Assembly: GCA_001899235.1 (NCBI GenBank)
Contig: MKVR01000035.1
Coordinates: forward strand, 1 to 58,771
Direction of reading: 5' to 3'
Length of the DNA: 58,771 bases
DNA from: Nitrosospira sp. 56-18
GTDB taxonomy: Bacteria > Pseudomonadota > Gammaproteobacteria > Burkholderiales > Nitrosomonadaceae
Position numbers and translations under genes: made by a program. A model generated the notes under the pieces. It was not told the origin of the DNA, did not search any database, and saw nothing but the letters and a program-made list of their open reading frames with translations. This document shows positions 15,138 through 31,964 of this stretch, in pieces. Position 1 is the stretch's first letter, and every line of letters starts with the position of its first letter.

Positions 15138-18100
15138 ATGATCGAGATCGTCCGCGTTGCCCTGCGACGTCCTTATACATTTGCTGTGCTGGCGCTGCTC
15201 ATCCTGCTTATCGGGCCGCTGACGATTTTGCGCACGCCAGTCGATATCTTCCCTGAGATACGCATCCCGGTGGTCGCGGTCGTATGGCAGTACACCGGCT
15301 TGCCGCCCGATGAAATGGCAGGGCGCATCATGACGCTATTCCAGCGTTCGTTGACGACAACAGTCAACGACATCGAGCATATCGAGGCAAATTCGTACGC
15401 CGGCTCGGGCGTCGTCAAGATATTCTTTCAGCCCGGCGTGGATATCGCTACGGCCAATGCTCAGGTCACGGCAATTTCGCAGACAGTCGTCAGGCAAATG
15501 CCGCTGGGCACGACACCTCCCCTGATTCTCAACTATAACGCCTCGACCGTGCCGATCATCCAGCTCGCCTTATCCGGCAAGGGGATGTCCGAGCAATCGC
15601 TTGCCGATCTTGCCCTGAATACTGTTCGCCTGCGCCTGGTTACCGTGCCCGGCGCCGCGCTTCCGTTTCCCTACGGGGGAAAGACGCGCCAGATCCAGAT
15701 TGATCTCGATGCGGCGGCGTTGCAGGCACGGGGCTTGACCGCGCAGGATGTAGGCAATGCCCTTGCCGCCCAGAATCTCATCACGCCCATCGGCACGCAG
15801 AAGATCGATGCCTTCGAATATACCCTGCAGCTGAACAACGCCGCTTCGTTTATCGAGGATCTCGGCGACCTGCCGATCAAGGCAGTCGATGGCGCAACGA
15901 TTTACATCAGGGATGTAGCCCAGGTGCGTGATGGCAGCGCGCCGCAAACCAATATCGTGCATGTGGACGGCACGCGCTCGGTGGTCATGACAGTTCTGAA
16001 GAATGGCATGATTTCCACGCTGGCCATCGTTTCCGGAATCAGGAAAAAGCTTGCTGAGATAGCGCCTGCGTTGCCGGAAAATCTCGAAATCGTGCCGATC
16101 AACGACCAGTCGTTCTTTGTGCGCGCGGCCATCAAGGGGGTTGCGCTGGAAGGCGCGATCGCGGCTGTATTGACAAGCGTCATGATACTGCTGTTCCTCG
16201 GGAGCTGGCGCTCGACGGTAATCGTTGCCGTATCGATTCCTCTTTCCATACTCGGTGCGATCATCTGCCTGGCGGCGCTGGGTGAAACATTGAACATCAT
16301 GACGCTTGGCGGCCTTGCGCTTGCCGTCGGCATACTTGTTGACGATGCCACGGTCACCATCGAGAGCATCAATCTCCATCTCGAGCAAGGCAAGGATGTT
16401 GAAACCGCCATCATGGATGGCGCCACCCAGATCGCGACCCCGGCGTTCGTATCGCTGCTATGCATCTGCATCGTGTTTATCCCGATGTTCTTTCTCGAAG
16501 GCGTGGCGCGCTATCTATTCGTACCCATGGCAATGGCTGTCATGTTTTCGATTGCCTGGTCCTTCCTCCTTTCGCGCACGCTCGTGCCGACCATGTCCAA
16601 ATATCTGCTGCGCCCCCATGTGCTGGAGGCCGTCAAAGCGCCGCCGCGCAATTTTCCGGAGCGTTTCCAGCGCGGCTTCGAAGTACGGTTCGAGCACCTT
16701 CGCTCCCGCTATCATGTTTATCTGCAACTGGCGCTGGCGCACCGGCGCATATTTGTGATGAGCTTTCTGGCTTGTGTGCTAGCCTCGTTTTTGCTATTGC
16801 CGTTTCTGGGCATGAATTTTTTTCCGTCGGTCGATAGCGGCCAGATCCTGATGCACGCGCGTACGCAGGTCGGGACGCGCGTGGAGGAAAGCGCAAACCA
16901 GTTCGCCGACATCCAGAAGGCAATCCGGAAAATCATTCCGCCAGAAGAAATCGAGGTAATGATCGATAATATCGGCCTGCCGCCCAGCAGCATCAATCTC
17001 ACCTACAACAATACCGGGGTAATGGGAACGCAGGACGGGGACATCCAGATCGCGTTGAAGAAAGGTCATCAGCCCACCGAGGGCTATGTGCGCGAGCTGC
17101 GGGAACAGCTCCCTCCAGCCTTTCCCGGCGTGACATTTTCGTTTCCGCCGGCGGATATCGTCAGCCAGATATTGAACTTTGGTTCGCCGGCGCCCATTGA
17201 AATACAGGTGCGCGGCAGCGATCTCGCAGCAAACTTCGATTATGCCAATTCCCTTTTGCCGGAAATACGCCGTATTTCCGGGATCGCGGATGTTCGCATA
17301 CAGCAGTCCCGAAGAAGGCCCGTCTTCGACATCGATGTCGACCGCACGCGTGCCCAGCAGCTGGGCATCACCATGCGCGACGTGACCAACAATCTGGTCG
17401 CCAGCCTTGCCGGCAGCAGCCAGGTCGCTCCGACCTTCTGGTTGAACCCGAAAAATGGCGTCCAGTATCCGATCGTGATACAAACACCGCAGTACCGTCT
17501 GGATTCGCTCGCCGCACTTGCCAATCTGCCGGTTGGCGCGAGCGGCGATATCCCGCAGGTGCTTGGCGCGGTTGCCGAATTCACGCGCACAAGCGGCAAC
17601 GCGCTGGTAAGCCAGTATGATATCCAGCCGATGGTGCAGATCCATGCAGCCACGCACGGACGCGACCTGGGCGCAGTCGCAGCGGAATTGCGCCGGGTTC
17701 TCGACGATAACGCGAGTAAAGCGCCCAGAGGGTCATCCGTTTCGCTGCTCGGGCAAGTCAGCACGATGGAAAGCGCATTCTCGGGCCTGCTGTTCGGCCT
17801 GTTAGGCGCCATTGTGCTTATTTACCTGCTGATCGTCGTGAATTTCCAATCCTGGACAGATCCTTTCGTCATCATCACAGCATTGCCGGCAGCGCTCGCC
17901 GGCATCATCTGGATGCTATTCATCACCCGCACGCCGATATCCGTGCCGGTGCTGACTGGCGCGATCATGTGCATGGGCGTGGCGACCGCCAACAGCGTGC
18001 TCATGATCAGTTTTGCGCGCGAACGGCTAGATGAGATCGGGAATGCGGCTGCCGCTGCGCTTGACGCCGGATTCGTGCGTTCCCGCCCGGTTATCATGAC

Positions 18101-18317
18101 GGCCCTGGCGATGATCATCGGCATGGTGCCGATGGCTCTGGGCCTGGGCGAGGGCGGGGAGCAGAATGCCCCGCTTGGCCGCGCCGTTATCGGCGGATTG
18201 ATCTTTGCCACCCTGGCCACGCTCATTTTCGTCCCGGTCGTTTTCAGCATCGTGCATGGAAGGCACGGCAAGGCGCCTGGGTCGGGTCTTGCAACGGAAA
18301 AACCTCATGCCACCTGA
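15138..18317 (+). CDS. RND efflux pump inner-membrane subunit (RND0)
   Basis: A 1059-residue HAE1/AcrB-like transporter with 12 transmembrane helices and two periplasmic loops. It opens MIEIVRVALRRPYTFAVL. The TM4 proton-relay motif GILVDDATV has both aspartates (402 and 403). In TM10 the position of the AcrB lysine (Lys940) is Ala within VATANSVLM, as in the two related pumps of this window, so all three form one subgroup. The cognate adaptor follows with an 11-base overlap; no outer-membrane factor lies in this operon, so it may borrow the one at 25629-27401. The substrate is unknown (organic compounds rather than metals by subgroup). Confidence 0.93.
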   Translation: MIEIVRVALRRPYTFAVLALLILLIGPLTILRTPVDIFPEIRIPVVAVVWQYTGLPPDEMAGRIMTLFQRSLTTTVNDIEHIEANSYAGSGVVKIFFQPGVDIATANAQVTAISQTVVRQMPLGTTPPLILNYNASTVPIIQLALSGKGMSEQSLADLALNTVRLRLVTVPGAALPFPYGGKTRQIQIDLDAAALQARGLTAQDVGNALAAQNLITPIGTQKIDAFEYTLQLNNAASFIEDLGDLPIKAVDGATIYIRDVAQVRDGSAPQTNIVHVDGTRSVVMTVLKNGMISTLAIVSGIRKKLAEIAPALPENLEIVPINDQSFFVRAAIKGVALEGAIAAVLTSVMILLFLGSWRSTVIVAVSIPLSILGAIICLAALGETLNIMTLGGLALAVGILVDDATVTIESINLHLEQGKDVETAIMDGATQIATPAFVSLLCICIVFIPMFFLEGVARYLFVPMAMAVMFSIAWSFLLSRTLVPTMSKYLLRPHVLEAVKAPPRNFPERFQRGFEVRFEHLRSRYHVYLQLALAHRRIFVMSFLACVLASFLLLPFLGMNFFPSVDSGQILMHARTQVGTRVEESANQFADIQKAIRKIIPPEEIEVMIDNIGLPPSSINLTYNNTGVMGTQDGDIQIALKKGHQPTEGYVRELREQLPPAFPGVTFSFPPADIVSQILNFGSPAPIEIQVRGSDLAANFDYANSLLPEIRRISGIADVRIQQSRRRPVFDIDVDRTRAQQLGITMRDVTNNLVASLAGSSQVAPTFWLNPKNGVQYPIVIQTPQYRLDSLAALANLPVGASGDIPQVLGAVAEFTRTSGNALVSQYDIQPMVQIHAATHGRDLGAVAAELRRVLDDNASKAPRGSSVSLLGQVSTMESAFSGLLFGLLGAIVLIYLLIVVNFQSWTDPFVIITALPAALAGIIWMLFITRTPISVPVLTGAIMCMGVATANSVLMISFARERLDEIGNAAAAALDAGFVRSRPVIMTALAMIIGMVPMALGLGEGGEQNAPLGRAVIGGLIFATLATLIFVPVVFSIVHGRHGKAPGSGLATEKPHAT

Positions 18318-19512
18318 TTCGCCCGCACCCCCGGCCTCTGCCCGCAAACTTCGCCTTGCCGGCATGGCTGCCATGCTCGGCGTCCTGATTATCGTCGGCA
18401 GTGGCCTGGCCATGCGAGCGTTCGATGACAAGCGTTTGCGCGATTGGACCGACGAACAGATTATCCCGACTGTTACGGTTCTTGAACCGGTCTCCAGCGG
18501 GGGGACGGTGCGATTCGATCTGCCTGGCCGTCTGCAGGCCTATTCGCGCGCGCTGCTCTATGCGCGCGTCGACGGGTATCTGAAAAGCTGGAAAACCGAT
18601 ATTGGCGCACAGGTCAAGGCTGGAGAGTTGCTCGCCGAAATCGAGACACCCGATCTTGATCAGCAGTTATTGCAGGCAAAAGCCGACCTGGCCAGTACAC
18701 AGGCGACCGCTGCGCTTGCCAGAACGACTGCTGAACGCTGGGAGCAGCTTGTGGATTCGGGGTATGCTTCAAAACAGGCTGCCGCTGAAAAAACAGGCGA
18801 CTTCAAGACCAAGGAGGCTCTGGTTAAATCGGCTCAGGCGAATGTCGAGCGTCTGGTGGCATTGAAGAAGTTTACCCGCATCGTTGCTCCCTTTGACGGT
18901 ATCGTCACTGCCCGCCTGACTGACATCGGGGTACTGGTCAATGCGGGCAGCGGCGTGGGCCAGCAGCTCTTCGAAATATCGAATACCCGGACATTGCGGG
19001 TATATGTCAGCGTACCGCAGGTTTACGTACCCCGTATTCCGCCTGGCAGCCCGGTTGCCATCACCGTACCGGAACGGCCGGGCAAGGCCTACTCCGCGAC
19101 AGTCGCGGCATCGGCGCAGGCGGTTGACAGTACTGCGGGAACGACGCTCATGCAGATTCACGTCGACAATGCCGATGGCGAGTTGCTGCCCGGGGCGTTC
19201 GCAAATATCAACTTCCAGTTACCCGGAGACGAGACAGTGATGAGCGTGCCTGCGAGCGCGCTGATGTTCGACAAGGCGGGATTGCGTGTTGCGACGGTGG
19301 ATGCGAACAACAGGGTTGTGCTAAAAACGGTGACTATCATGCGCGACTTGGGCAAGACTGTCGAGCTTGCCTCGGGCCTGGTTCCTGGCGATCGCGTTAT
19401 CGAAAGCCCCCCGGATGGCATCGCGGATGGCGATGGCGTGCGCATCAGCCACGCCGCGGGCAAGCCAGACAGAACCAATGGCGCGCCCAGCGGCGGCAAG
19501 GGCTTTTACTAG
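18307..19512 (+). CDS. RND periplasmic adaptor (HlyD/MFP family)
   Basis: A 401-residue membrane-fusion protein. The N-terminal anchor is AAMLGVLIIVGSGLAM. A lipoyl/barrel-sandwich half-motif (ARVDGYLKSWKTDIGAQVKAG) follows, then an alpha-hairpin rich in Ala/Gln/Lys, the second lipoyl half (RIVAPFDGIVTARLTDIGVL) and the beta-barrel and membrane-proximal domains. The ATG at 18307 overlaps the end of the pump gene out of frame, so translation is coupled. It links RND0 to an outer-membrane channel. Confidence 0.92.
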   Translation: MPPDSPAPPASARKLRLAGMAAMLGVLIIVGSGLAMRAFDDKRLRDWTDEQIIPTVTVLEPVSSGGTVRFDLPGRLQAYSRALLYARVDGYLKSWKTDIGAQVKAGELLAEIETPDLDQQLLQAKADLASTQATAALARTTAERWEQLVDSGYASKQAAAEKTGDFKTKEALVKSAQANVERLVALKKFTRIVAPFDGIVTARLTDIGVLVNAGSGVGQQLFEISNTRTLRVYVSVPQVYVPRIPPGSPVAITVPERPGKAYSATVAASAQAVDSTAGTTLMQIHVDNADGELLPGAFANINFQLPGDETVMSVPASALMFDKAGLRVATVDANNRVVLKTVTIMRDLGKTVELASGLVPGDRVIESPPDGIADGDGVRISHAAGKPDRTNGAPSGGKGFY

Positions 19513-20529: not shown

Positions 20530-21348
20530 CTACTGCGCCAGCAATCCTTTCTCGAGATAGGCGATATCGAACGGCATGATGATGCGCGAATCGGGTGAGA
20601 TCAGCGACCCATCCTTACCGGCATAGTCAAGCCGGCTCAGCATATCCTTGATGACATTGAGCCGGGTAAGCGGCTTGTCATCGGCGCGCACCACCGTCCA
20701 GGGGGTGATGAGATTATGGGTGCGCGCCAGCATCTCGTTTCGCGCCTGTGTATATTGTTTCCATTTTTTTAGCGCGAGCTCATCCAGTCCGCTGATCTTC
20801 CACTGGGTAAGCGGATTTTTCTTCCGGTCTTCCAGACGTTCCGCCTGTTCCGGTTTGCTGATGTCAAGGTAGTATTTCAGGAGTTTGACGCCGGACCGGA
20901 TCAGCATATGCTCGAATTCCGGCACAGAGGTCATGAATTCCTCGTATTCTTCGTCGGTGCAAAATCCCATGACCCGTTCCACCCCCGCCCGGTTGTACCA
21001 GCTGCGATTGAACAGCACGAGTTCCTGAGATGCCGGCAAATGCCGCACATAGCGCTGAAAATACCACGAGTTGTTGTCGCGGTCGGAGGGTTTGCCAAGG
21101 GCGACCACCCGTGTTTCGCGGGGACTGAGGTGCTCGGTGATGCGCTTGATGGTTCCATCCTTTCCCGCGGCATCCCGGCCTTCGAAGATGACCAGTATCT
21201 TGTCGTTACACTGTATGAAATGGCGCTGCAGCTTGACGAGCTCGACCTGAAGGCGATAAAGCGTCTCCTTATACTCCTTTTTCGAGATTTCTGGCACTTC
21301 CATCTCGAAGTCCATCCCATTCTTTTTTGTCTTTTTACTTTTGCTCAT
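20530..21348 (-). CDS. ppk2: Polyphosphate kinase 2 (PPK2-A)
   Basis: A 272-residue cytoplasmic kinase that moves phosphate between polyphosphate and nucleotides. Family motifs are Walker A EGRDAAGKDG (near residue 55), the lid and Walker B region FNRSWYNRAGVE, and the conserved WKISGLDELALKKW, TPWTVVRADDK and LNVIKDML. The single-domain length suits class I. The ATG at 21348 (MSKSKKTKK) is preferred over an upstream extension, with AGGAG 11 bases before it. It lies 124 bases after the RND1 pump on the same strand. A second PPK2 is at 37675-38601. Confidence 0.93.
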   Translation of the reverse strand: MSKSKKTKKNGMDFEMEVPEISKKEYKETLYRLQVELVKLQRHFIQCNDKILVIFEGRDAAGKDGTIKRITEHLSPRETRVVALGKPSDRDNNSWYFQRYVRHLPASQELVLFNRSWYNRAGVERVMGFCTDEEYEEFMTSVPEFEHMLIRSGVKLLKYYLDISKPEQAERLEDRKKNPLTQWKISGLDELALKKWKQYTQARNEMLARTHNLITPWTVVRADDKPLTRLNVIKDMLSRLDYAGKDGSLISPDSRIIMPFDIAYLEKGLLAQ

Positions 21349-21472
21349 GGCATATCCGCTCCTGTTTTGTTCGCCGCCCTGGTCTTCATGCAGAGATGCC
21401 TGTTCCTCGCGGAGGCCCATGCTGCATCATACACTTCTTCCGCAACGCATCCGCGCCCCTGCCGAACCCCGC

Positions 21473-24400
21473 TTATGCACGCCGGGAGCGCCTTCCTTGT
21501 CGCAGGAACGCTTTCCATGTCGAGGAACTTTTTCCATGTTGAGGAATTTTTTCCTGGTCTTCAGGAGCGCTGCGTGCGCGATACATGATGGCATACATGC
21601 AGGGAACAAAAAATAGCGTATATATCGTTGCAAACGTCAGGCCGCCAATGACTGCACGGCCCAGCGGCGCATTGGTGGATCCTCCCATCGCCATCGGGAG
21701 CATGCCCATGATCATGGCCGCCGCAGTCATGAGCACAGGGCGAATCCGGGCTTTGCCGGCCTCGACGGCGGCAAGCAGCAGGTCGCCATGCGCTTCGATG
21801 CGCTCCAGCGCATAGGCCACGACCAGTATGGAATTTGCCGTAGCCGTTCCCATGGCCATGATGGCGCCTGTCAGGGCCGGGACGGAAATATTCGTCTGGC
21901 TCAGGAACAGGGCCCAGGCGATGCCTGCCAGAGCGCCGGGCAGGGCGGTGATGATGATGAAGGGAATCAGCCATGATTGAAAATTGATGACAAGCATGAG
22001 ATAGATCAGCACCACGGCCGCCAGGAGGCCGACCAGCAGTTCTCCATAGGTGGCGATCATGATCTCGGCCTGGCCGCTGATTTTGACGGTGGAGCCGCGG
22101 GGAAGCTCATCCTTCATCTCGTCGACGATTTTCCTGACGTCGTCCAGCACTCCGCCCAGCCCCCGTCCTTCGGCGGACACATAGACTTCAATCAGCGGCA
22201 TGACACCCCTGTGGGTCACCAGGCCAGGCGTGCCTACCGGCGATTGCTCCGTGAGATTGCCCAGGAGCTGATAACCCTGATCCAGGCCGGCATCCCCAAC
22301 CGTCTTGACGGGAATCAGGTTCAAGTCATTGGTGCTTGCGACCTGATGTTGAGGATTATAGATATTGATCTGGTATGAAATGCCGGTCTTCAGATCCAGC
22401 CAGTATTTCTGGTCGATCTGCTGGGTTCCGTTGGTCGTGATCAGCATATTCAGGGCGATATCCGCTTCGTTCCTGTCAATATCGAGCCCGTATGTCCTCT
22501 GGCCTTCAACAAGCAAGGTGGGCGTGCGCATGGTTTGCTGGATCACCACATCGGAGGAGCCGGGAATTTTACGCAGCTTGCTTTGCAATTTACGGGCGTA
22601 TTCGTAGTTGCTGTACATATCCATCCCCTTGATCTGAACATCGATCGGAGAAGGGGAACCGAAATTCAGGATTTTCGCTATCAGGTCGGCCGGCTGAAAG
22701 GTGAATTCACTTCCCGGATAGCGCTCCTTCAGGCCGTCATGCAGAATTTTCCGGATATCCCACACCGCTGATTTATCGTTGAACAGGGTGATCGTCAGGT
22801 CGCAGTCCTGCGATCCGATGGTGGGCGTCGGAATGAACGCCAGGTTATGCGGCCCGACGGGTATGCCGCAATTGCTGATGATTTCTTCGACCTGCCCGGG
22901 AAGCATCTGATGGATATCGTTCGAAACGAGCGTGGTGATGCGGTTTGTGGCCTCCATCCGCGTGCCAAGAGGCGCCCGCATGTGCATCTGTATAATCCCG
23001 GACCTGACCTCGGGAAAAAAATCGCGGCCGTTGAAGTAGAACAGGATAAGAGAGACGAGCGCGAAAGCCAGCATGATCGTGGCGAACCGGCGGCGGTTTG
23101 CAATCGTTTGTTCGAGCAGCCCGCCATACCAGCCGCAGAACCGGAGAAAGCGAACCTCGAATCCCTCCTGGAAACGGGAGAAAATCCCCAGATGATATTT
23201 TAGCCTCTGTAGAAAACCTGCAAACTTTCCCGTTGGCTTTTCCTTGCTCTGGCCACTCTCTTTTTTGTGCTTTTCTGCATGATTTCGCTGAAATGTTGCA
23301 AATTTCCCCTGCGGTTTTTCCTCGGTCCGGTCGCCATCCTTTTTACGTTTTTCTGTGCCAGGATGCACCAGAATATATTTCGCCAGGGTCGGCACCAGCG
23401 TAAACGACAGGATGAAGGACGCCAGCATGGCAAATATCACTGACAGCGCCATCGGCTTGAACAGAAAGCCCGATACGCCGGAAAGCGTGAACAGCGGCAG
23501 CCAGACTATGGATATGCATAATGTGGCGAGCAGCGTCGGAATAACGATCTGGTTTGCCGCATCGATAATTGCCTCATCGAGTTTCTTGCCCATTTTCAGG
23601 TGAGTATCGATGTTCTCGGTCATCACCGTCGCGTTGTCGACAAGAATCCCCACCGCCAGCGCCAATCCGCCCAGCGTCATGACATTCAACGACTCGCCCA
23701 GCGCCTGCAGACAGATGACGGAGGTGAGAATGCACAACGGGATGGAAGTCGTAATGACGATCATGGGACGCCACGAACCGAGCAAAAGCATGGCGATCAA
23801 ACCGACAAGCAGGCCGGCGATCAGCATTTCATGCGTCACCTCCCTGATGGATTCCCGCACGAAAACCGATGCGTCGTTGAGGACTTCAACCTTCACGTCA
23901 GGCGGCACGATCTCCTTGATGAGCGGAAGGGCTTCCTTGACGCCGGCAACCACGTCCAGGGTCGACACATCGCCGCTTTTCATGACGACAATAGTGACAG
24001 CCTGTTTACCCTTCGCAATGATGGAGTTCGTTTGCGGCGGACCCGCGAGCTGGACATCGGCGACATCGCGCAGAAAGATGAACGAATTTCCCTCCCGCTT
24101 TATCGGAATACGGTTGAATCTCTCGATATCCGGCGGCATCGCGTTTGTCTGGACCATCCAGTCGGTCTGCTTGATCTTCATGTCGCCCGCGGGCAGCACG
24201 ATATTCTGGTGATCGAAGACCGCATGGATATCGGTTGGCGACAGGTTGTGATCCAGCAATTTTTCCCTATCGAGGGATACCAGAAGCTGTATGGGCTTTC
24301 CACCGTAAGGATGCGGAACGATCGCCCCCGGGATCACGATAATCAGGGGTCTGATTCGAGCGAAGGCAAGATTGTAGAGGTCTGCCGGCGTCATGCTTTC

Positions 24401-24841
24401 CGAGGTAAGTTTCAGCATGACAACCGGTACCGAAGAGGCTTCCAGGCGCATGATCATGGGCGGGGAAATATCCGGCGGCAACGCCTTGACGATCGTCTGG
24501 CTTATCGCGGTAACTTCCGCTTCGGCGCCAGGGAGACTGGTGTCGGGCTGAAGAAAAATATTGGTGATGCTGATGCCGTAGTACGCCTGGCTGACGATGT
24601 CCGCGATGCCTTCCACCGTCGACGTCAATGCGCGCTCGAAATAAAAGGTGATACGGCCGGATACATCCAGCGGCAGCATGCCGGCGTATGCCCAGACCAC
24701 GGAAATGACGGGGATTTTGATGGAGGGAAAAATGTCCGTCGGCGAATCTCGTATCGCCCGGATTCCGAATATGACGATCAGAATCGAAAGAACCACGAAG
24801 GTATAAGGCCTGCGCAACGCGATAAGCACGAGCTGGTTCAT
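21473..24841 (-). CDS. RND efflux pump subunit with Asp-Asn proton relay (RND1)
   Basis: A 1122-residue AcrB-like transporter, paralogous to RND2 (28671-31964). The TM4 motif is GILVDNATVMTEN: Asp402 is kept but Asp403, equivalent to AcrB Asp408, is Asn (codon AAC read on the minus strand, plus-strand positions 23633-23635), and the following residue Ile is Thr. A cytoplasmic loop after TM6 (about residues 493-550) is Lys/Glu-rich with an internal duplication (EEKPQGKFATF, then KEKPTGKFAGF). The C-terminal half is close to RND2. The C-terminus is extended and basic. It has no adaptor of its own; those of the RND2 operon are upstream on the same strand. It may act as a non-proton-driven partner or be losing function. 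Confidence 0.93.
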   Translation of the reverse strand: MNQLVLIALRRPYTFVVLSILIVIFGIRAIRDSPTDIFPSIKIPVISVVWAYAGMLPLDVSGRITFYFERALTSTVEGIADIVSQAYYGISITNIFLQPDTSLPGAEAEVTAISQTIVKALPPDISPPMIMRLEASSVPVVMLKLTSESMTPADLYNLAFARIRPLIIVIPGAIVPHPYGGKPIQLLVSLDREKLLDHNLSPTDIHAVFDHQNIVLPAGDMKIKQTDWMVQTNAMPPDIERFNRIPIKREGNSFIFLRDVADVQLAGPPQTNSIIAKGKQAVTIVVMKSGDVSTLDVVAGVKEALPLIKEIVPPDVKVEVLNDASVFVRESIREVTHEMLIAGLLVGLIAMLLLGSWRPMIVITTSIPLCILTSVICLQALGESLNVMTLGGLALAVGILVDNATVMTENIDTHLKMGKKLDEAIIDAANQIVIPTLLATLCISIVWLPLFTLSGVSGFLFKPMALSVIFAMLASFILSFTLVPTLAKYILVHPGTEKRKKDGDRTEEKPQGKFATFQRNHAEKHKKESGQSKEKPTGKFAGFLQRLKYHLGIFSRFQEGFEVRFLRFCGWYGGLLEQTIANRRRFATIMLAFALVSLILFYFNGRDFFPEVRSGIIQMHMRAPLGTRMEATNRITTLVSNDIHQMLPGQVEEIISNCGIPVGPHNLAFIPTPTIGSQDCDLTITLFNDKSAVWDIRKILHDGLKERYPGSEFTFQPADLIAKILNFGSPSPIDVQIKGMDMYSNYEYARKLQSKLRKIPGSSDVVIQQTMRTPTLLVEGQRTYGLDIDRNEADIALNMLITTNGTQQIDQKYWLDLKTGISYQINIYNPQHQVASTNDLNLIPVKTVGDAGLDQGYQLLGNLTEQSPVGTPGLVTHRGVMPLIEVYVSAEGRGLGGVLDDVRKIVDEMKDELPRGSTVKISGQAEIMIATYGELLVGLLAAVVLIYLMLVINFQSWLIPFIIITALPGALAGIAWALFLSQTNISVPALTGAIMAMGTATANSILVVAYALERIEAHGDLLLAAVEAGKARIRPVLMTAAAMIMGMLPMAMGGSTNAPLGRAVIGGLTFATIYTLFFVPCMYAIMYRARSAPEDQEKIPQHGKSSSTWKAFLRQGRRSRRA

Positions 24842-24879
24842 ATCATGTTTCCCCTTATACCTTGATACTTTAGGTAAAA

Positions 24880-24930
24880 AAATTCATTACCTGCAATACT
24901 GCACGCAAGAGGAGGCGATTCTGATTCTTT
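24880..24930 (-). other. Remnant of the 3' end of the MBL gene upstream of RND1
   Basis: Read on the minus strand, the bases before RND1 (AGAATCGCCTCCTCTTGCG, GCAGTATTGCAGG, AATGAATTTT) align with 31993-32042 (AGAATTGCCTCATCCCTGCG, GCAATATTGTAAG, AATGAATTTT), which is the last part of the metallo-beta-lactamase-fold gene and its stop. It is a footprint of the duplication that produced RND1. Confidence 0.55.
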
Positions 24931-24954
24931 TACAGACCTTTATCGACGATCAAG

Positions 24955-25085
24955 GGAAGTCCCGAGCAAGTCACCGCTGGCGCGGCGGTGGTTTGCGGGA
25001 TGGGATACGCAAAAAGCGGCGATGCGAATGGATCTCTTCCAGAGGAAGATACGACCCCGCAGCGGGGCATCGTTGCCCCGGCTAC
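24955..25085 (+). repeat. Dispersed intergenic repeat, family A, copy 2
   Basis: The copy begins GGAAGTCCCGAGCAAGTCACC and runs through GGCGCGGCGGTGG, TTTGCGGGATGGGAT, GCGAATGG and AGGAAGATACGACCCCG to GTTGCCCCGG. It lies in the 787-base gap between RND1 and the outer-membrane factor gene. A further fragment of the family is at 25392-25440. The rest of this gap shows nothing I can name. Confidence 0.6.
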
Positions 25086-25391
25086 GACCTGCCTCGCGCG
25101 CCTCATGCTCATCCCGATTCTGCCGCCAACGCGCCCGGTGAGGTTATTCAGGACTCCCCCGAATTAGACATCGAAATGGCCCCGGAATTCGGACCGTTGG
25201 ATAATTAGGAGCTTTGGTTCACGATCCAGGCAGGCCAGGTGCAGGCCCTGATTCGGCGACTAAACAGTACAACAGTACGAACGTTATCCCGGCGGGAGCC
25301 GGTATCCAGTGGCGTTCGAAACATGCTGTTTGCTGGCTTGGGGTGTATTCCGGCTCCAACCTGGAATGATCAGAATGGCCGGAATGGCTCA

Positions 25392-25440
25392 CTGGCGTGC
25401 CGGTGAGCCTTGCGGGATGGGATGCGTGAAAGGCGGAGAC
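25392..25440 (+). repeat. Repeat family A, internal fragment
   Basis: Contains TTGCGGGATGGGATGCGTGAAAGGCG-type sequence matching the centre of the longer copies; the ends of the family are missing. Confidence 0.45.
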
Positions 25441-25628
25441 ACCAACAGATCGCTTGTTTTCATCCCAAGGTTGAAACCACCGGCTTCAGCCGGACAGCTT
25501 TAGCTGGTGGTTGTTGAGTATCGGGCTCAGGAAGCCAGCGAAGGCAATCTGGCATTGATACGCTAGTGCTGAAAGCCGCTGCGCCGAATTCAACAATCCC
25601 GATATTTCAGCGCAGCGCGATCAGTCAG

Positions 25629-27401
25629 TTATGGAACCAGAACCTGTGACAAATTGTCATTTTTGTAGTTTCTATCGCTGAGATCCCGATATGGAGCGAG
25701 TGGTTTCATCAAATTGGTGTTTTTGTTGCCTCTGGCATTCTGATCCCTGTCAGGTTCAAGCGGAATCAGGGGTTTCATCAAATTATTGTTTTTGATGTTT
25801 CTATCGGCGGGATCCGCATTGACATCAATTCCCCCGGCTGGTACAGGCTTGTCAAGATTTGTATATTGCAATATGCCAAAAGGTTGAATTTCACTGTCAG
25901 CGGGTAATTGATCGCGGTTCCAGCCTCCTCCCAGCGCACGGATAAGCGCCACCGATGATCTCAGCAGATCGGTCTTGATCTGTACGGAATCGATGCTTGC
26001 CGTCAGTGTGCCGAGCTGGGCATAAATGAGTTCAAGGCTGGTAGCCAGACCGCCCTTGTAGAGATCCATGGTAAGATTTTGCGTCGTGCGTGCGGCTCCG
26101 ACGGCGGCATCCTGCCGTTCGGCGGCAATCGTCATCCAGTGCGTCTTGGTCAGATTGTTCTCAACCTCACGAAAGGCATTCAGCACCGTCGAGCGGTATA
26201 AATTTTCTGTCTCGCGATAGACCGCCCACGATTGTTGCAGTTGAGCCCGGCGATAGCCGCCCTGGAAAAGCGGAATGGAAAAAGAAGACCCATAGGCCCA
26301 GAAACTGTTAGCCAGTGCGAGCAGATTGAGCCCGGAATCTTCCATTCCTCCTCCGAGCCGGATGGCCACATCCGGGAAAAAAGCGGCGCGTGCTATTCCA
26401 ATGCCGCGGTTGGCCTGCGCCATCTGGCGTTCCATTGCGGCAATATCGGGCCGGCGCTCAAGTAGCGTGGAGGGAACGGTCTGCGGCAGGCTGAACCTCG
26501 CGGAAAGGAGGATATCTACCGGTTCGATCCTGAAGCTGGCTGGAGCAAGATTGAGCAGAATGGCTATGGACTGCTCCGCCACCTTGCGATCGGCATTCAT
26601 CAGGGCCAGCTTCGACTCGGTAGCGAACAGCAGCGACTGGGCCCGTGCTACGTCGAGATTGGAGGCGATCTTGCCTTCGAACTGAGTCATTACGACATCC
26701 AATGAGTAGTTATAAAGGCTGATCGACTGTTTATAGATCGCGATTTGCGCATCCAGTCCGCGCAGCGTGAAATAATTCGTTGCAACTTCCGCCTGCAGAA
26801 TAAGGCGCGCGAGCCCATAATCGGCTGCGCGCTCTTCCGCGCGATAGATTTTGGCTTGCGCCGCATTTCGCAGTTTCGACCAGAAGTCCGGTTCCCAGGA
26901 TGCAATCCCATTCATCAGAACCTGGGTGTCGCTGTCAGGTTCTCCGGGAGCGCGGAAGAGGGTATGGTCGGATTGCCTGTTATTACTGCCACCGAACCCA
27001 AAGCCGAGCTGGGGGAAATATTGGGACCGTGCCTTCATCATGGAATTGCGCGCCTGAATGAAGCGTTCAGCCGCTGCCTGCAAGTCCGGGTTGGCTGCGA
27101 TCGCCTGCTCTACGAGGTTGTTCAGAACGGGATCGTCATAGAGTTTCCACCAGTCGGGCCGGACTGCATCATCCGACGGAGTGGCCTTGACGAAATCACT
27201 TGTTCCCTCCCAGGTATCCGGAACAACAAATTCGGTCGGTTTATAAGTGGGCGACAGATCGAATGCAGGAAAAGGGAGATTGGCGCAACCCGTCAAGCCT
27301 GCCGCCACAAGCAGGAAACCACCATATCTGGCGCTGGAACGGCAGAAGCTTGATATAGGGGTTTCTTTTTTACGCCGCAAGTTGGTCATGGTCGGTGTCA
27401 T
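25629..27401 (-). CDS. Outer-membrane efflux factor (NodT/OprM type) with C-terminal repeat tail
   Basis: A 590-residue lipoprotein channel: the signal ends at lipobox LTGC near residue 35. Two outer-membrane efflux domains follow (PDWWKLYDDPVLNNLVEQA and LLERRPDIAAMERQMAQANR are typical). The last 60 residues are unusual: an Asn-rich, three-fold degenerate repeat with the core KNNNLMKPL, KNTNLMKPL and KNDNLSQVL, beyond the normal end of the family. The start ATG overlaps the adaptor stop in ATGA, giving translational coupling. It forms the exit duct for RND2 and probably for RND1 and RND0. Confidence 0.93.
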   Translation of the reverse strand: MTPTMTNLRRKKETPISSFCRSSARYGGFLLVAAGLTGCANLPFPAFDLSPTYKPTEFVVPDTWEGTSDFVKATPSDDAVRPDWWKLYDDPVLNNLVEQAIAANPDLQAAAERFIQARNSMMKARSQYFPQLGFGFGGSNNRQSDHTLFRAPGEPDSDTQVLMNGIASWEPDFWSKLRNAAQAKIYRAEERAADYGLARLILQAEVATNYFTLRGLDAQIAIYKQSISLYNYSLDVVMTQFEGKIASNLDVARAQSLLFATESKLALMNADRKVAEQSIAILLNLAPASFRIEPVDILLSARFSLPQTVPSTLLERRPDIAAMERQMAQANRGIGIARAAFFPDVAIRLGGGMEDSGLNLLALANSFWAYGSSFSIPLFQGGYRRAQLQQSWAVYRETENLYRSTVLNAFREVENNLTKTHWMTIAAERQDAAVGAARTTQNLTMDLYKGGLATSLELIYAQLGTLTASIDSVQIKTDLLRSSVALIRALGGGWNRDQLPADSEIQPFGILQYTNLDKPVPAGGIDVNADPADRNIKNNNLMKPLIPLEPDRDQNARGNKNTNLMKPLAPYRDLSDRNYKNDNLSQVLVP

Positions 27402-28669
27402 GGTGCATGTGATCCGTTCAATGCTTGCTTCAACTTCGGATCGGACGTTTCCGAATGAGAGGCTGGTTTGGATGACTCCGGAGCTGCTTCCCTTGGTTTG
27501 TTGATCAGGTCATATCCGGGCGCGGGCGTCACGATGGTCACCTTGTCGCCGTCGAGTATGGCAGCGCTGGGATTGTTGATGATCCGGTCCTCTGTTGTGA
27601 CGCCCTCGCTTAATTCGACCGTGGCGTCCAGGATTCTGGTTATCTTGATCGGCTTGAAGTGAACAATGTTGTTGTCATCCACCACGGCCACCCGCGTTCC
27701 CATCTCATCGAATACCAGGGAGCTGGATGGAATGGAAAGGTGTTTGTTCTGCACATCCACGGTCAGGGTGACCGATGCATAGGAGCCGGGCCACAGATCC
27801 TTCTCTTCATTATCAATCACAAACTGGGTAACCACCGTACGCGTGCTCACATCGAAGCCACGAGCGGTGGTCAGAAACTCGGCAGTAAATTCCCGATTGG
27901 TAAATTGCGGCACTGTCAGGTGGGCTTTCAGGCCATCATGCATCAGCGCGCCGAAGCGCTCGGGCACGCTGACGAACAAACGCAGCCGGCTGATGTCCGC
28001 GACAGTATAAAGATTGCGGACTTCACCCTGGGGCGTGCTGATCGTGCCTTCCTTGTTGATGAAATCCCCTACGTTGATGGCGCGGTTGATGACTACGCCG
28101 TCATACGGTGCAATAATCGTTTTAAACCCGATCAATGCCTCGAAGTTGCGGACATTCTGCATGGCGGCATTGACCTTTGCCTGCTGGGCCTTTGCTTCGG
28201 CCACCTTCACCGAAATCGCCTGCTCGGATACCGCCTGGTTTTTGCGCAAAGCTATCCATCGGTCCGCAGTAAGTATGGCGAGCTCGTTGAGGGCCACTTC
28301 CGACGCCAGATCCGCCTTGGCTTGCCGGTATTGGGCATCGAGCGCCGGCGCGTTGATTTCGGCAAGGACATCTCCTTTTTTGACTCTCGCTCCCCAATCC
28401 TTATGCCACATCTTGACGTAACCGGATACCTGGGCATAGATCGGCGCCTGGAACCATGCCTCGATGGTACCTGGAAGCTGGATGGTTTCCTGGGCAGGCA
28501 ATGGTTCGGCATGGACGATAGCCACTGTGGGAACGTCATTTTCCATCGCCTGATTTTTTAAGGAAGCCATATCCTTCCTGGATTCAACGACCCTGTAACC
28601 CAGGTAGATAACAGAAACAAGCAGAACGATCGCAATGATTACCGTACTTTTTTTACGTGATTTTTCCAT
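27398..28669 (-). CDS. RND periplasmic adaptor (HlyD/MFP family)
   Basis: About 423 residues. The anchor is TVIIAIVLLVSVIYLGYRVV. Lipoyl halves are APIYAQVSGYVKMWHKDWGA and TIIAPYDGVVINRAINVGDF, with a coiled hairpin between. Beta-barrel residues follow (LRLFVSVPERFGALM). A Ser/Lys/Pro-rich tail of about 40 residues closes it. The start at 28669 (MEKSRKKS) is chosen because it lies right after the RND2 stop at 28671; ATGs at 28678 and 28684 inside the pump gene are possible. The end overlaps the outer-membrane factor start by four bases. Confidence 0.9.
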   Translation of the reverse strand: MEKSRKKSTVIIAIVLLVSVIYLGYRVVESRKDMASLKNQAMENDVPTVAIVHAEPLPAQETIQLPGTIEAWFQAPIYAQVSGYVKMWHKDWGARVKKGDVLAEINAPALDAQYRQAKADLASEVALNELAILTADRWIALRKNQAVSEQAISVKVAEAKAQQAKVNAAMQNVRNFEALIGFKTIIAPYDGVVINRAINVGDFINKEGTISTPQGEVRNLYTVADISRLRLFVSVPERFGALMHDGLKAHLTVPQFTNREFTAEFLTTARGFDVSTRTVVTQFVIDNEEKDLWPGSYASVTLTVDVQNKHLSIPSSSLVFDEMGTRVAVVDDNNIVHFKPIKITRILDATVELSEGVTTEDRIINNPSAAILDGDKVTIVTPAPGYDLINKPREAAPESSKPASHSETSDPKLKQALNGSHAP

Positions 28670-28670
28670 A

Positions 28671-31600
28671 TCAGGCATTTCCATGTTGTGAAGCGATTTC
28701 CTTGTGGCCAGGGATGGGTTCCTGGTCTTTAGGAACGCTGCGTGCGTAATACATGATGGCATATACAGCCGGGACAAAGAACAGGGTATATATCGTTGCA
28801 AACGTCAGGCCGCCAATGACCGCACGGCCCAGCGGCGCATTGGTGGATCCTCCCATCGCCATCGGGAGCATGCCCATGATCATGGCCGCCGCAGTCATGA
28901 GCACAGGGCGAATCCGGGCTTTGCCGGCCTCGATGGCGGCTAGCAGCGGGTCGCCATGTATTTCGATGCGCTCCAGCGCATAGGACACGACCAGTATGGA
29001 ATTTGCCGTGGCCGTTCCCATGGCCATGATGGCGCCTGTCAGGGCCGGGACGGAAATATTCGTCTGGGTCAGGAACAGGGCCCAGGCAATACCTGCCAGA
29101 GCGCCGGGCAGGGCGGTGATGATGATGAAGGGAACCAGCCATGATTGAAAATTGACGACAAGGAAGAGGTAGATCAGCACCACGGCCGCCAGGAGGCCGA
29201 CAAGCAGTTCTCCGTAGGTGACGACCATATTCGCGGCCTGGCCGGCGATTTTGACCTCGGAACCGCGGGGAACTTCCTCGTCCATCTCCTCGACAATTTT
29301 CTCGACTTCCGCCAGCACGCCGCCAAGTCCCCGTCCTTCGGCAGATACGTACACTTCGATCAACGGCATGATGCCCCTGTGGGTGACCAGGCCGGGCGTG
29401 CCTACCGGCGATTTCTGCGTCAGGTTGCCCAGGAGCTGATAATTCTGATCCAGGCCGCCTTCTCCTATCGGCTTGACAGGAATCCTGTTCAACTCATTGA
29501 TGCTTGTGACTTGAGGTTGAGGCTGGTATATGTTGATCTGGTACGACATGCCAGTCTTCAGATCCAGCCAGTATTTCTGGTCGATCTGCTGGGTTCCGTT
29601 GGTCGTGATCAGCATATTCAGGGCGATATCCGCTTCGCTCCTGTCAACACCGAGCCCATATGTCCTCTGGCCTTCAATAAACATGGTGGGCGTACGCATG
29701 GTTTGCTGGATCACCACATCGGAGGAGCCGGCGATCTTGCGCAGCTTGCCTTGCAATTTGCGCGCGTATTCGTAGTTTCCGTATATATCCATCCCGTTAA
29801 TCTGGACAGTAATCGGAGAAGGGGCGCCGAAATTCAGAATTTTCGCTATCAGGTCGGCCGGCTGAAAGGTGAATTCACTTCCCGGATAGCGCTCCTTCAG
29901 GCCGTCATGCAGAATTTTCCGGATATCCCACACCGCCGATTTATCATTGAACAGGGTGATCGTCAGGTCGCAGTCCTGCGTTCCGATGGTGGGTGTCGGA
30001 ATGAACGCCAGGTTATGCGGGCCGACGGGCAGACCGCAATTGCTGATGATGGCTTCGACCTGCCCGGGAAGCAGCCGGTGGATATCGTTCGAAACGAGCG
30101 TGGTGATGCGGTTTATGGATTCCATCCGCGTTCCCAGAGGCCCCCGCATGTGCATCTGGACGGTTCCCGATCTGACCTCCGGGAAAAAATCGCGGCCGTT
30201 GAAGTAGAACAGGATAAGGGAGAGGAGCGCGAAAGCCAGCATGATCGTGGCGAACCGGCGGCGGTTTGCAATCGTTTGTTCGAGCAGCCCGCCATACCAG
30301 CCGCAGAATCGAAGAAAACGGGCTTCGAATCCCTCTTGAAAACGGGAAAAAACCCCCATGTGATGTTGTAGCTTCTCCTTGAAACTGAGAGCCTGCCCCG
30401 CTGGCTTTCCGTCGCCATGCTCGCCGTGGTGGCCTTCCTTTCCGTGCCCTTCCGCATGTCCTTCTCCGTGTCCTTCCGCGTGAGGATGCTTGATAAGATA
30501 TTTCGCCATGGTCGGCACGAGCGTACGCGACAGGATGAAGGACGCCAGCATGGCGAATATCACCGCCAGCGCCATGGGCTTGAACAGATAGCCCGATACG
30601 CCGGAAAGCGTAAACAGCGGCAGCCAGACAATGCATATGCATAATGTGGCGAGCAGCGTCGGAATGACGATCTGGTTTGCCGCATCGATGATTGCCTCAT
30701 CGAGTTCCTTGCCCATTTCCAGGTGAGTATCGATGTTCTCGATCATCACTGTCGCGTCATCGACCAGAATCCCCACCGCCAGCGCCAGTCCTCCCAGCGT
30801 CATGACGTTCATCGACTCGCCCAGTGCGTGCAGGAAGATGAGGGAGGTGAGAATGCACAACGGAATGGAAGTGGTCACGACGATCATGGGACGCCACGAG
30901 CCGAGCATGAGCATGACGATCAAACCGACAAGCAGGCCCGCGATCAGCATTTCATGCATCACCTCGTCGATGGATTCCCGCACGAAGACCGACGCATCGG
31001 TGATGATTCTCACGTCCACATGGGACGGCACGATCTCCTTGATGCGTGGAATGGTCGCCCTGATGCCGTCGACCACGTCCAGGGTCGATGCCTCGCCGCT
31101 TTTCATGACGACGATAATGACGGCCTGCTTCCCGTCCACCATGACGGAGTTTGTTTGCGGCGGACCCGCGAGCTGGACATCGGCGACATCGCGCAAAAAG
31201 ACGAATGAATTTCCTACCCGCTTTATTGGAATATCGTTGAATTCCGGAATTTCCGGCGGCATCGCGTTTGTCTGGACCATCCAGTCGGTCTGCTTGATCT
31301 TCATGTCGCCCGCAGGCAGCACGAGATTCTGACGATCGAAAGCCGCATGGACATCGGTTGGCGATATATTGCGAGCCAGCATCTTGTTCTGATCGAGGGA
31401 TACGAGGAGCTGCTTGGGTTTTCCACCGTAAGGATGCGGAACAATTGCCCCCGGGATCACGACAATCAGGGGCCTGAGCTGGTTATAGGAAAGGTTATAG
31501 AGATCTGCCGGCGTCATTTCGTCCGAGGTGACCTGCAGGCTGGCTACCGCTACCTGAGAGGCTTCCAGACGCATGATCATGGGCGGGGAAATATCCGGCG

Positions 31601-31964
31601 GCAACTGCTTGACGATTGTCTGGGCGATGGCTGTGACTTCCGCTTCCGCGCCAGGGAGATTGGTGTGGGGCTGAAGAAAAATATTCGTGATGCTGATGCC
31701 ATAATACGCCTGGCTGACGATGTCCGCGATGCCTTCCACCGTCGAGGTCAGGAAGCGTTCAAAGTAAAAAGTGATACGGCCCGACACATCCAGCGGCAAC
31801 ATGCCGGCGTAAGCCCAGACCACGGAGATCACGGGAATCTTGATGGTGGGAAAGACGTCGGTTGGCGCGTGCCGTATCGCCCTGACTCCGAATATGACGA
31901 TCAGGATCGAAAGAACCACGAAGGTATAAGGTCTGCGCAACGCGATAAGTACTATCTGGTTCAT
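28671..31964 (-). CDS. RND efflux pump inner-membrane subunit with His-rich loop (RND2)
   Basis: A 1097-residue AcrB-like pump with the intact TM4 relay GILVDDATVMIEN (Asp402, Asp403). The TM10 segment GTATANSIL lacks the AcrB Lys940, as in RND0. The loop after TM6 (residues about 493-518) has eight histidines in 26 residues (for example EGHGEGHAEGHG and EGHHGEHGD), a likely metal-binding or regulatory insert absent from RND0 and RND1. It has GAGGAAA before the start. It is third-last of a probable operon: MBL-fold protein, RND2, adaptor, outer-membrane factor. The C-terminal half is close to RND1 in DNA as well as protein. Confidence 0.94.
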   Translation of the reverse strand: MNQIVLIALRRPYTFVVLSILIVIFGVRAIRHAPTDVFPTIKIPVISVVWAYAGMLPLDVSGRITFYFERFLTSTVEGIADIVSQAYYGISITNIFLQPHTNLPGAEAEVTAIAQTIVKQLPPDISPPMIMRLEASQVAVASLQVTSDEMTPADLYNLSYNQLRPLIVVIPGAIVPHPYGGKPKQLLVSLDQNKMLARNISPTDVHAAFDRQNLVLPAGDMKIKQTDWMVQTNAMPPEIPEFNDIPIKRVGNSFVFLRDVADVQLAGPPQTNSVMVDGKQAVIIVVMKSGEASTLDVVDGIRATIPRIKEIVPSHVDVRIITDASVFVRESIDEVMHEMLIAGLLVGLIVMLMLGSWRPMIVVTTSIPLCILTSLIFLHALGESMNVMTLGGLALAVGILVDDATVMIENIDTHLEMGKELDEAIIDAANQIVIPTLLATLCICIVWLPLFTLSGVSGYLFKPMALAVIFAMLASFILSRTLVPTMAKYLIKHPHAEGHGEGHAEGHGKEGHHGEHGDGKPAGQALSFKEKLQHHMGVFSRFQEGFEARFLRFCGWYGGLLEQTIANRRRFATIMLAFALLSLILFYFNGRDFFPEVRSGTVQMHMRGPLGTRMESINRITTLVSNDIHRLLPGQVEAIISNCGLPVGPHNLAFIPTPTIGTQDCDLTITLFNDKSAVWDIRKILHDGLKERYPGSEFTFQPADLIAKILNFGAPSPITVQINGMDIYGNYEYARKLQGKLRKIAGSSDVVIQQTMRTPTMFIEGQRTYGLGVDRSEADIALNMLITTNGTQQIDQKYWLDLKTGMSYQINIYQPQPQVTSINELNRIPVKPIGEGGLDQNYQLLGNLTQKSPVGTPGLVTHRGIMPLIEVYVSAEGRGLGGVLAEVEKIVEEMDEEVPRGSEVKIAGQAANMVVTYGELLVGLLAAVVLIYLFLVVNFQSWLVPFIIITALPGALAGIAWALFLTQTNISVPALTGAIMAMGTATANSILVVSYALERIEIHGDPLLAAIEAGKARIRPVLMTAAAMIMGMLPMAMGGSTNAPLGRAVIGGLTFATIYTLFFVPAVYAIMYYARSVPKDQEPIPGHKEIASQHGNA

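Follow-up and report, generated by a model that had tools for sequence, protein, structure and literature searches.

Comparison with characterized RND permeases

The AcrB-type proton relay consists of D407, D408, and K940. According to the parts of the cited articles available to us, D408 of AcrB, the HAE-1 RND pump of Escherichia coli, is proton binding and K940 bridges the two repeats (PMC8277102, PMC4359379), while the TM6 residue S481, which belongs to the same repeat as D408, donates a hydrogen bond to D408 (PMC4359379). The substitution D408N abolishes efflux in AcrB (PMC4359379, PMC5546932), and for the AcrB D408N structure, protonation of D407 in the O state has been predicted (PMC4359379, PMC8277102). 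The number of protons per cycle and the role of D408 as an essential carrier are treated as an open question in the available part of PMC8277102. MdtB and MdtC, of the HAE-1 clade, form heterotrimers from two permeases served by one adaptor, and in the accessible text of Bodilis et al. (2024) 203 tandem permease pairs are reported, all within clade B (PMC10872679). MexB divided into two halves still works (Eda et al. 2003, as cited in the available part of PMC4359379).

The window analyzed here, by which we mean the whole stretch of 58,771 nucleotides of contig MKVR01000035.1 from Nitrosospira sp. 56-18 (genome G000), contains the permease genes RND0, RND1, and RND2 with the following features.

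15138 to 18317, plus strand: RND0, a more distant D-type permease (Ala at the K940 position, R480), 43% identical to RND1
18205 to 19512: adaptor ORF of RND0, downstream of RND0
21473 to 24841, minus strand: RND1, RND-family permease of the N type (D402, N403, F480, Ala at the K940 position), 1122 aa
23402 to 23404, minus strand: codon 480 of RND1, TTT (Phe), equivalent of AcrB L486, in TM6
23633 to 23635, minus strand: codon 403 of RND1, AAC (Asn), equivalent of AcrB D408, in TM4
24842 to 25628, minus strand: gap of 787 bases between the outer-membrane factor gene and RND1
25629 to 27401, minus strand: outer-membrane factor (OMF), NodT type (NCBIfam TIGR01845, 308 bits, cut-off 210)
27398 to 28801, minus strand: periplasmic adaptor of the RND2 operon (NCBIfam TIGR01730, 188 bits, cut-off 94.9), the true start probably lying within the listed ORF
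28671 to 31964, minus strand: RND2, permease of the D type (D402, D403, R480, Ala at the K940 position), 1097 aa

The minus-strand gene order RND2, adaptor, OMF, RND1 is kept in two further genomes of the genus, G011 and G012, and RND1 lacks dedicated adaptor and OMF genes, in agreement with an earlier sequence-only reading of this DNA that counted one adaptor and one OMF for two pumps. RND1 and RND2 are 83% identical across the whole protein.

RND1 belongs to the RND fold family, matching Pfam ACR_tran (PF00873) in two pieces of 347 and 217 bits against a cut-off of 28, and it reaches no specific cut-off among the matched NCBIfam models. Its best match is the RND_permease_2 model NF033617 (463 bits, below the cut-off of 1250). 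It scores 250 bits against a cut-off of 1584 for MdtB/MuxB, 270 against 1774 for MdtC, and 356 against 701 for the HME model TIGR00914 (CusA/CzcA), the CusA profile being second only to the general RND models. The AcrB-type triad is D, N, A in RND1 and D, D, A in RND2 and RND0. Like RND1, AcrB carries the equivalents of D407, R971, T978, and E414/N415, but it has K940, D408, and L486 where RND1 has Ala, Asn, and Phe; the two proteins are related at a level of about 20 to 30%, and the NCBIfam cut-off for AcrB is not reached. CusA, of the HME type, resembles RND1 in having no acid at the D408 position (Ala in CusA) and in keeping the single TM4 Asp, but differs in having Glu at the K940 position and Ile at 486, where RND1 has Ala and Phe. 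As in MdtB/MdtC, one adaptor serves both RND1 and RND2; however, MdtB and MdtC are direct neighbors that both retain D, D, and K, whereas the adaptor and OMF genes lie between RND1 and RND2. Compared with the clade B tandem pairs, as described in the available text of PMC10872679, RND1 and RND2 are likewise near neighbors but have two genes between them and lack such a profile match.

From the evidence given below, RND1 is probably a maintained efflux permease, predicted to be working with a changed proton relay pair.

The intergenic region upstream of RND1 retains traces of an RND2-like leader. About 75 to 90 bases 5' of the RND1 start codon resemble the RND2 leader in all three genomes with this arrangement (G000, G011, and G012), most clearly in G011 and G012 (87 to 89%), and the end of the OMF-RND1 gap nearest RND1 resembles the G011 RND2 leader (77% over 78 bases). 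Scans with promoter and terminator consensus sequences found no sigma-70-like or terminator-like sites before RND1 or RND2. Within the gap, two seemingly similar stretches around the words GGGATGGGATRCG were spotted by eye. On the other side of RND1, a polyphosphate kinase 2 gene (TIGR03707, 362 bits; window positions 20530 to 21420) begins about 50 bases past the permease gene; in G011 and G012, the sequence read around RND1 contained no ORF resembling it.

The relay site of RND1

The reading frame of RND1 is open, with no internal stops. In a MAFFT alignment with AcrB, MdtB, MdtC, and CusA of E. coli K-12, N403 aligns with AcrB D408 and D402 with D407, and the equivalents of AcrB E414, N415, R971, and T978 are kept. 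The codon at 403 is GAC (Asp) in RND2, at 30756 to 30758, and the Asp403 codon of RND0 starts at 16344. The Asn at the D408 equivalent and the otherwise intact protein, both pointed out by the sequence-only reading, are thus borne out. The RND1 orthologue of G011, which is 90% identical to RND1 of G000, also has AAC at 403, so N403 is not the base error of one assembly.

That reading had overlooked two further differences. The AcrB K940 position is Ala in all 13 aligned genus sequences (12 of the RND1/RND2 type plus RND0), and position 480 is Arg in RND2, RND0, and the remaining D-type relatives in the genus, as opposed to Phe in RND1. Because the Lys is missing from the whole group, the rule from AcrB that D408N kills the pump, as given in the available parts of the cited articles, is not simply transferable, and a D408N reading alone is no ground for calling an RND pump dead when Lys940 is missing.

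The TM6-TM7 cytoplasmic linker also varies among these permeases. It is His-rich in RND2 (10 His in 49 residues), contains 4 His in 64 residues in RND1 of G000, and none in 23 residues, as delimited by script, in the G011 RND1; the RND2 linker may bind metal.

Distribution and selection within the genus

Genes of the RND1/RND2 type are present in 9 of the 23 genus genomes and absent from 14, which shows that the genus can do without the system. All nine carriers have RND2, adaptor, and OMF as a conserved block, and a second permease follows the OMF in three of them, namely the window's own genome (G000), G011, and G012. The six single-copy genomes have D403. Of the expectation that Asn403 would be fixed among RND1 orthologues, one part held, since N403 is shared by G000 and G011 and is not peculiar to this genome, and one did not, since RND1 of the third two-copy species, G012, has D403 and R480. 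In a sample of 369 genomes of the window's class, which did not include G011, the N motif was found in the window's own genome only.

In a tree of N-terminal halves (N-halves), the three RND1 genes cluster (support, 94) apart from the RND2-type genes (support, 99), with the two N-type genes forming a subcluster (support, 100). The duplication therefore predates the three species, and N403 originated, jointly with R480F, in the common ancestor of G000 and G011. The two N-type RND1 genes are identical over 53 consecutive bases from residue 380 onward, ahead of the Asn, and the two proteins share 36 residues that are absent from the 10 other genus sequences; F480 is among these, its counterpart being Arg in all 10 and in RND0.

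Pairwise Nei-Gojobori comparison of the G000 and G011 genes gave whole-gene dN/dS values of 0.156 for RND1 and 0.138 for RND2 and N-half values of 0.135 and 0.073, respectively, so purifying selection acts on RND1, its N-half evolving somewhat faster. Among RND1 and RND2 of G000, G011, and G012, 49 third codon positions were shared within a genome versus 37 between orthologues, compared with 18 versus 98 first and second positions. This pattern suggests that the two copies have undergone partial gene conversion while retaining their protein differences.

These results bear on the possibility that RND1 is an inactive or decaying duplicate, or that it acts as a sensor and transports nothing. An Asn at a position essential in AcrB and the faster evolution of the RND1 N-half would fit decay, as would a decayed relative in Nitrospira, where one of two N-type copies in genome G086 (C106) has four internal stops. 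Against it stand the open frames in both species, the dN/dS of 0.156, the 53-base identical run between the two RND1 genes, and the signs of RND1/RND2 exchange at third positions with first- and second-position differences kept. We consider a dead copy very improbable.

The gene amoA was detected in 16 of the 23 genomes, which marks the genus as ammonia oxidizing. No amoA match was found in the window's own draft genome, probably as a result of a draft gap.

Joint exchange of residues 403 and 480

A scan of genome contigs with the genus alignment returned 593 loci, and the best 80 of these gave 83 RND ORFs. Of the 83 ORFs, 72 have Asp at position 403, 6 have Asn, 3 have Glu, 1 has Gln, and 1, a CusA-type gene, has Ser; all six N403 ORFs come from Nitrospira or relatives (L038 to L043). 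Residue 480 in the best 80 loci was Tyr with every N403, Phe with the Q403 (L070), and Arg with D403 and the two readable E403, the exceptions being L077 (Tyr) and L082 (Gln). The same pairing was found in a set of 149 distinct N-halves, which admitted only D, N, E, and Q at 403, skipped windows too short for both sites, and left out L001 to L011, L020, L033 to L036, and L147 (other families, E. coli controls, and duplicates of the window's genes). An acid at 403 was accompanied by Arg480 in 109 of 112 cases and an amide (36 N and 1 Q) by Phe or Tyr480 in 37 of 37; Asn403 together with Arg480 did not occur among the 149. The three exceptions kept Asp403 without Arg480 (L077, Tyr; L082, Gln; L186/L204, Phe).

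Fitch parsimony over 296 branches of a single FastTree topology placed six amide gains and eight aromatic gains, and every one of the six amide gains coincided with an aromatic gain on the same branch. The number of amide gains would be lower if Nitrospira pumps had reverted from N to D, and the placement of L121/L150 among the D types has a support of 65. We count the amide gains as at least five because L202 and L148/L149/L157, which are split genes, may represent one event. A hypergeometric figure for the joint gains is 3e-11, a rough value that ignores branch lengths. N403 is more than a chance substitution, being shared by two species, lying in a gene under purifying selection, and belonging to a joint 403/480 change that is seen in other lineages.

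Columns 403 and 480 were the only ones changed in all four N lineages when these were compared with their nearest D relatives (33 N and 51 D rows), every other column having changed in at most two of the four. Among 62 full-length pumps (23 N and 39 D), selected from part of the loci by LAVGILVD(D/N)A and not including the exceptions L077, L082, and L186, the two types were separated by columns 403 and 480 alone; in the C-terminal half, with TM10 and TM11, no column separated them. In the codons that were read, Arg (CGT/CGC) is two substitutions away from Phe or Tyr (TTT/TTC/TAC/TAT). Two other candidate partners of N403 in RND1, T408 and K416, were rejected, K416 recurring in one other N lineage and T408 in none.

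The association of N403 with loss of Arg480, also where the normal partner pump is absent, argues for an alternative relay rather than a dead copy. D403 and R480 would function jointly, R480 being the counter-ion of the Asp within the first transmembrane repeat, and this pair would replace the inter-repeat D408-K940 bridge of AcrB. With N403 and Phe or Tyr480, both charges would be lost and the charge balance preserved, leaving D402 (AcrB D407) as the sole titratable TM4 residue in RND1. RND1 would then run on one proton-binding Asp and RND2 on two, and RND1 would borrow the adaptor and OMF of the RND2 operon, either as a homotrimer or alongside RND2.

The proximity of TM4 and TM6 at the relay site is known from the S481-D408 hydrogen bond of AcrB, as described in the available part of PMC4359379. 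AcrB S481 aligns with S475 of RND1, and a direct contact between residues 403 and 480 is plausible, if uncertain because residue 480 lies five residues further along the helix. A structure prediction for RND1 from 13 close sequences reached a mean pLDDT of 47 and a pTM of 0.30 and was set aside. The literature searched, which included few subscription papers, named no TM6 Arg as counter-ion of D408 and described neither a natural D408N with a partner change nor the 403/480 pair.

It is also conceivable, if quite unlikely, that the pair tunes the coupling ion, the response to membrane potential, or mere TM4-TM6 packing rather than the number of protons. The pair is exchanged as a unit, and with the TM10 Lys missing anyway, the rules established for AcrB do not necessarily apply. 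Across seven further RND genes of the window's own genome, a comparison that leaves out locus L003 and the C39 match, Asp at 408 goes with Lys at 940, and Ala, Gly, Ser, or Pro at 408 goes with Glu, Leu, or Gln at 940; the families with A, G, S, or P still keep D402, so that 403 is not universally a proton carrier. Yet 403 corresponds to D408, the known proton-binding residue of AcrB in the available text of PMC8277102 and PMC4359379, and the occurrence of both D and E with Arg speaks for a charge pair.

N-type pumps and split permease genes in Nitrospira

A motif scan of 79 Nitrospira genomes found GILVDNA(A/T)VM in 23 (33 sites) and GILVDDA(A/T)VM in 12 (32 sites), with 11 genomes having both motifs, 12 the N motif only, and one the D motif only. 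All readable N403 sites were combined with Tyr or Phe480, and D403 with Arg480 except in L186 (Phe). When the 12 N-only genomes were queried with the N-half of RND2, 23 matches of at least 54% identity were obtained. Of these, 21 are the N sites themselves, and the remaining two are a split N/F gene in G108 and a fragment in G077 that ends before the site. All 12 also carry a more distant RND gene (32 to 35% identical) in which the relay site was not covered. Several of the N-only genomes are drafts; G048 is a single contig of 4.13 Mb.

Gene context was read in nine N-only genomes (G056, G077, and G086 being outside this reading), and in these nine of the 12 the N-type gene is followed by adaptor and OMF genes (G044, G045, G048, G051, G052, G108, G109, G117, and G119). 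The Nitrospira N-type pumps resemble RND1 in having N403 with an aromatic residue at 480 and Ala at the K940 position, and their adaptor and OMF are related to those of the RND2 operon. They differ in their separate origin on the tree, in having mostly Tyr480 where RND1 has Phe, and in possessing adaptor and OMF genes of their own.

A non-driving or sensor-like dead pump, which the sequence-only reading had suggested, is not supported as the default interpretation: Lys940 is Ala in all these pumps, so there is no triad to break; N403 is accompanied by R480F, and the same pair change recurs elsewhere; and N-type pumps occur in Nitrospira with their own adaptor and OMF, 12 of the 23 N-bearing genomes having no close D-type copy.

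Naturally split RND permease genes were found in Nitrospira, with the N-half and the C-terminal half (C-half) as separate ORFs.

L148, 1974 to 9595: split RND locus
L149, 10296 to 17905: split RND locus
L157, 10457 to 18066: split RND locus
L160, 6521 to 12557: split RND locus
L202, 2095 to 6555: split RND locus
L204, 4422 to 12084: split RND locus

G099, G100, and G107 have a piecewise pump beside an N-type operon, in the order D/R N-half (499 aa), N/F N-half (499 aa), one C-half (566 aa), adaptor, and OMF. In L148 a relic of the start of a C-half follows the first N-half. G050 has one D/R N-half and a C-half, G098 has D/R and D/F N-halves, and G108 has a split N/F N-half followed by its C-half, the 10 kb read containing no other N-half. 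The genes are cut after TM6 and before the amphipathic helix. Since sites 403 and 480 both lie in the N-half, the relay type can change with the C-half untouched. The cut matches that of two-half MexB, between TM6 and the amphipathic helix in the available part of PMC4359379, but the latter is a laboratory construct with one N-half, whereas the natural loci carry one or two N-halves of differing type. No naturally split RND genes with two N-halves were found in the literature searched, which included few subscription papers.

The split loci bear on another explanation, in which RND1 joins RND2 in mixed trimers as a subunit that drives transport weakly or not at all, the one adaptor and OMF working with the mixed pump. 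A single adaptor and a single OMF accompany two permeases in three species; RND1 and RND2 are 83% identical with similar C-halves, so the subunits could assemble; and where D-type and N-type N-halves stand in tandem before one C-half, as in three Nitrospira genomes (L148, L149, and L157), mixing would be hard to avoid. However, N-type pumps exist without close D-type copies, the N/F N-half and C-half of G108 have no second N-half in the 10 kb read, and the pair change alone would explain N403 without a partner. The analogy with MdtB/MdtC that the sequence-only reading had drawn is weak, both proteins keeping Asp-Asp and Lys and lying side by side. RND1 and RND2 may form mixed trimers as such; we regard a non-driving or weakly driving role for RND1 within them as unlikely.

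Several observations weigh against our preferred reading, in which RND1 is maintained as a pump and its relay pair has been exchanged: the three cases of Asp without Arg, the loss of efflux in AcrB D408N (PMC4359379 and PMC5546932, in their available parts), the G086 copy with four stops, the lack of an adaptor and OMF belonging to RND1, the D/R pair kept in G012 RND1, the 14 of 23 genus genomes without the system, the faster RND1 N-half, and the distant RND gene in each N-only genome.

A wider proposal can be made tentatively, and it may well prove wrong. The clade would have moved its relay counter-ion from TM10 (Lys940) to TM6 (Arg480) and toggled, on at least five occasions, between two-Asp and one-Asp relays by pair exchange; in certain Nitrospira, this switch would reside in exchangeable N-half genes sharing one C-half, with trimers of mixed proton stoichiometry possible. 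RND1 and RND2 constitute a natural, near-identical pair (83%) differing at the relay site and one TM6 partner site. As natural pump pairs differ at exactly these positions, the choice between a one-proton and a two-proton relay is directly testable.

Neighboring RND0-type permeases were also observed outside these groups. In a Bradyrhizobium metagenome-assembled genome (L083, 767 to 5497), two such permeases adjoin each other with Asp-Asp and Asp-Glu at the relay, the latter being cut by the contig end. In Dyella flava (L067, 9956 to 19404), two RND0-type permease ORFs, both Asp-Asp, lie on one strand about 3 kb apart.
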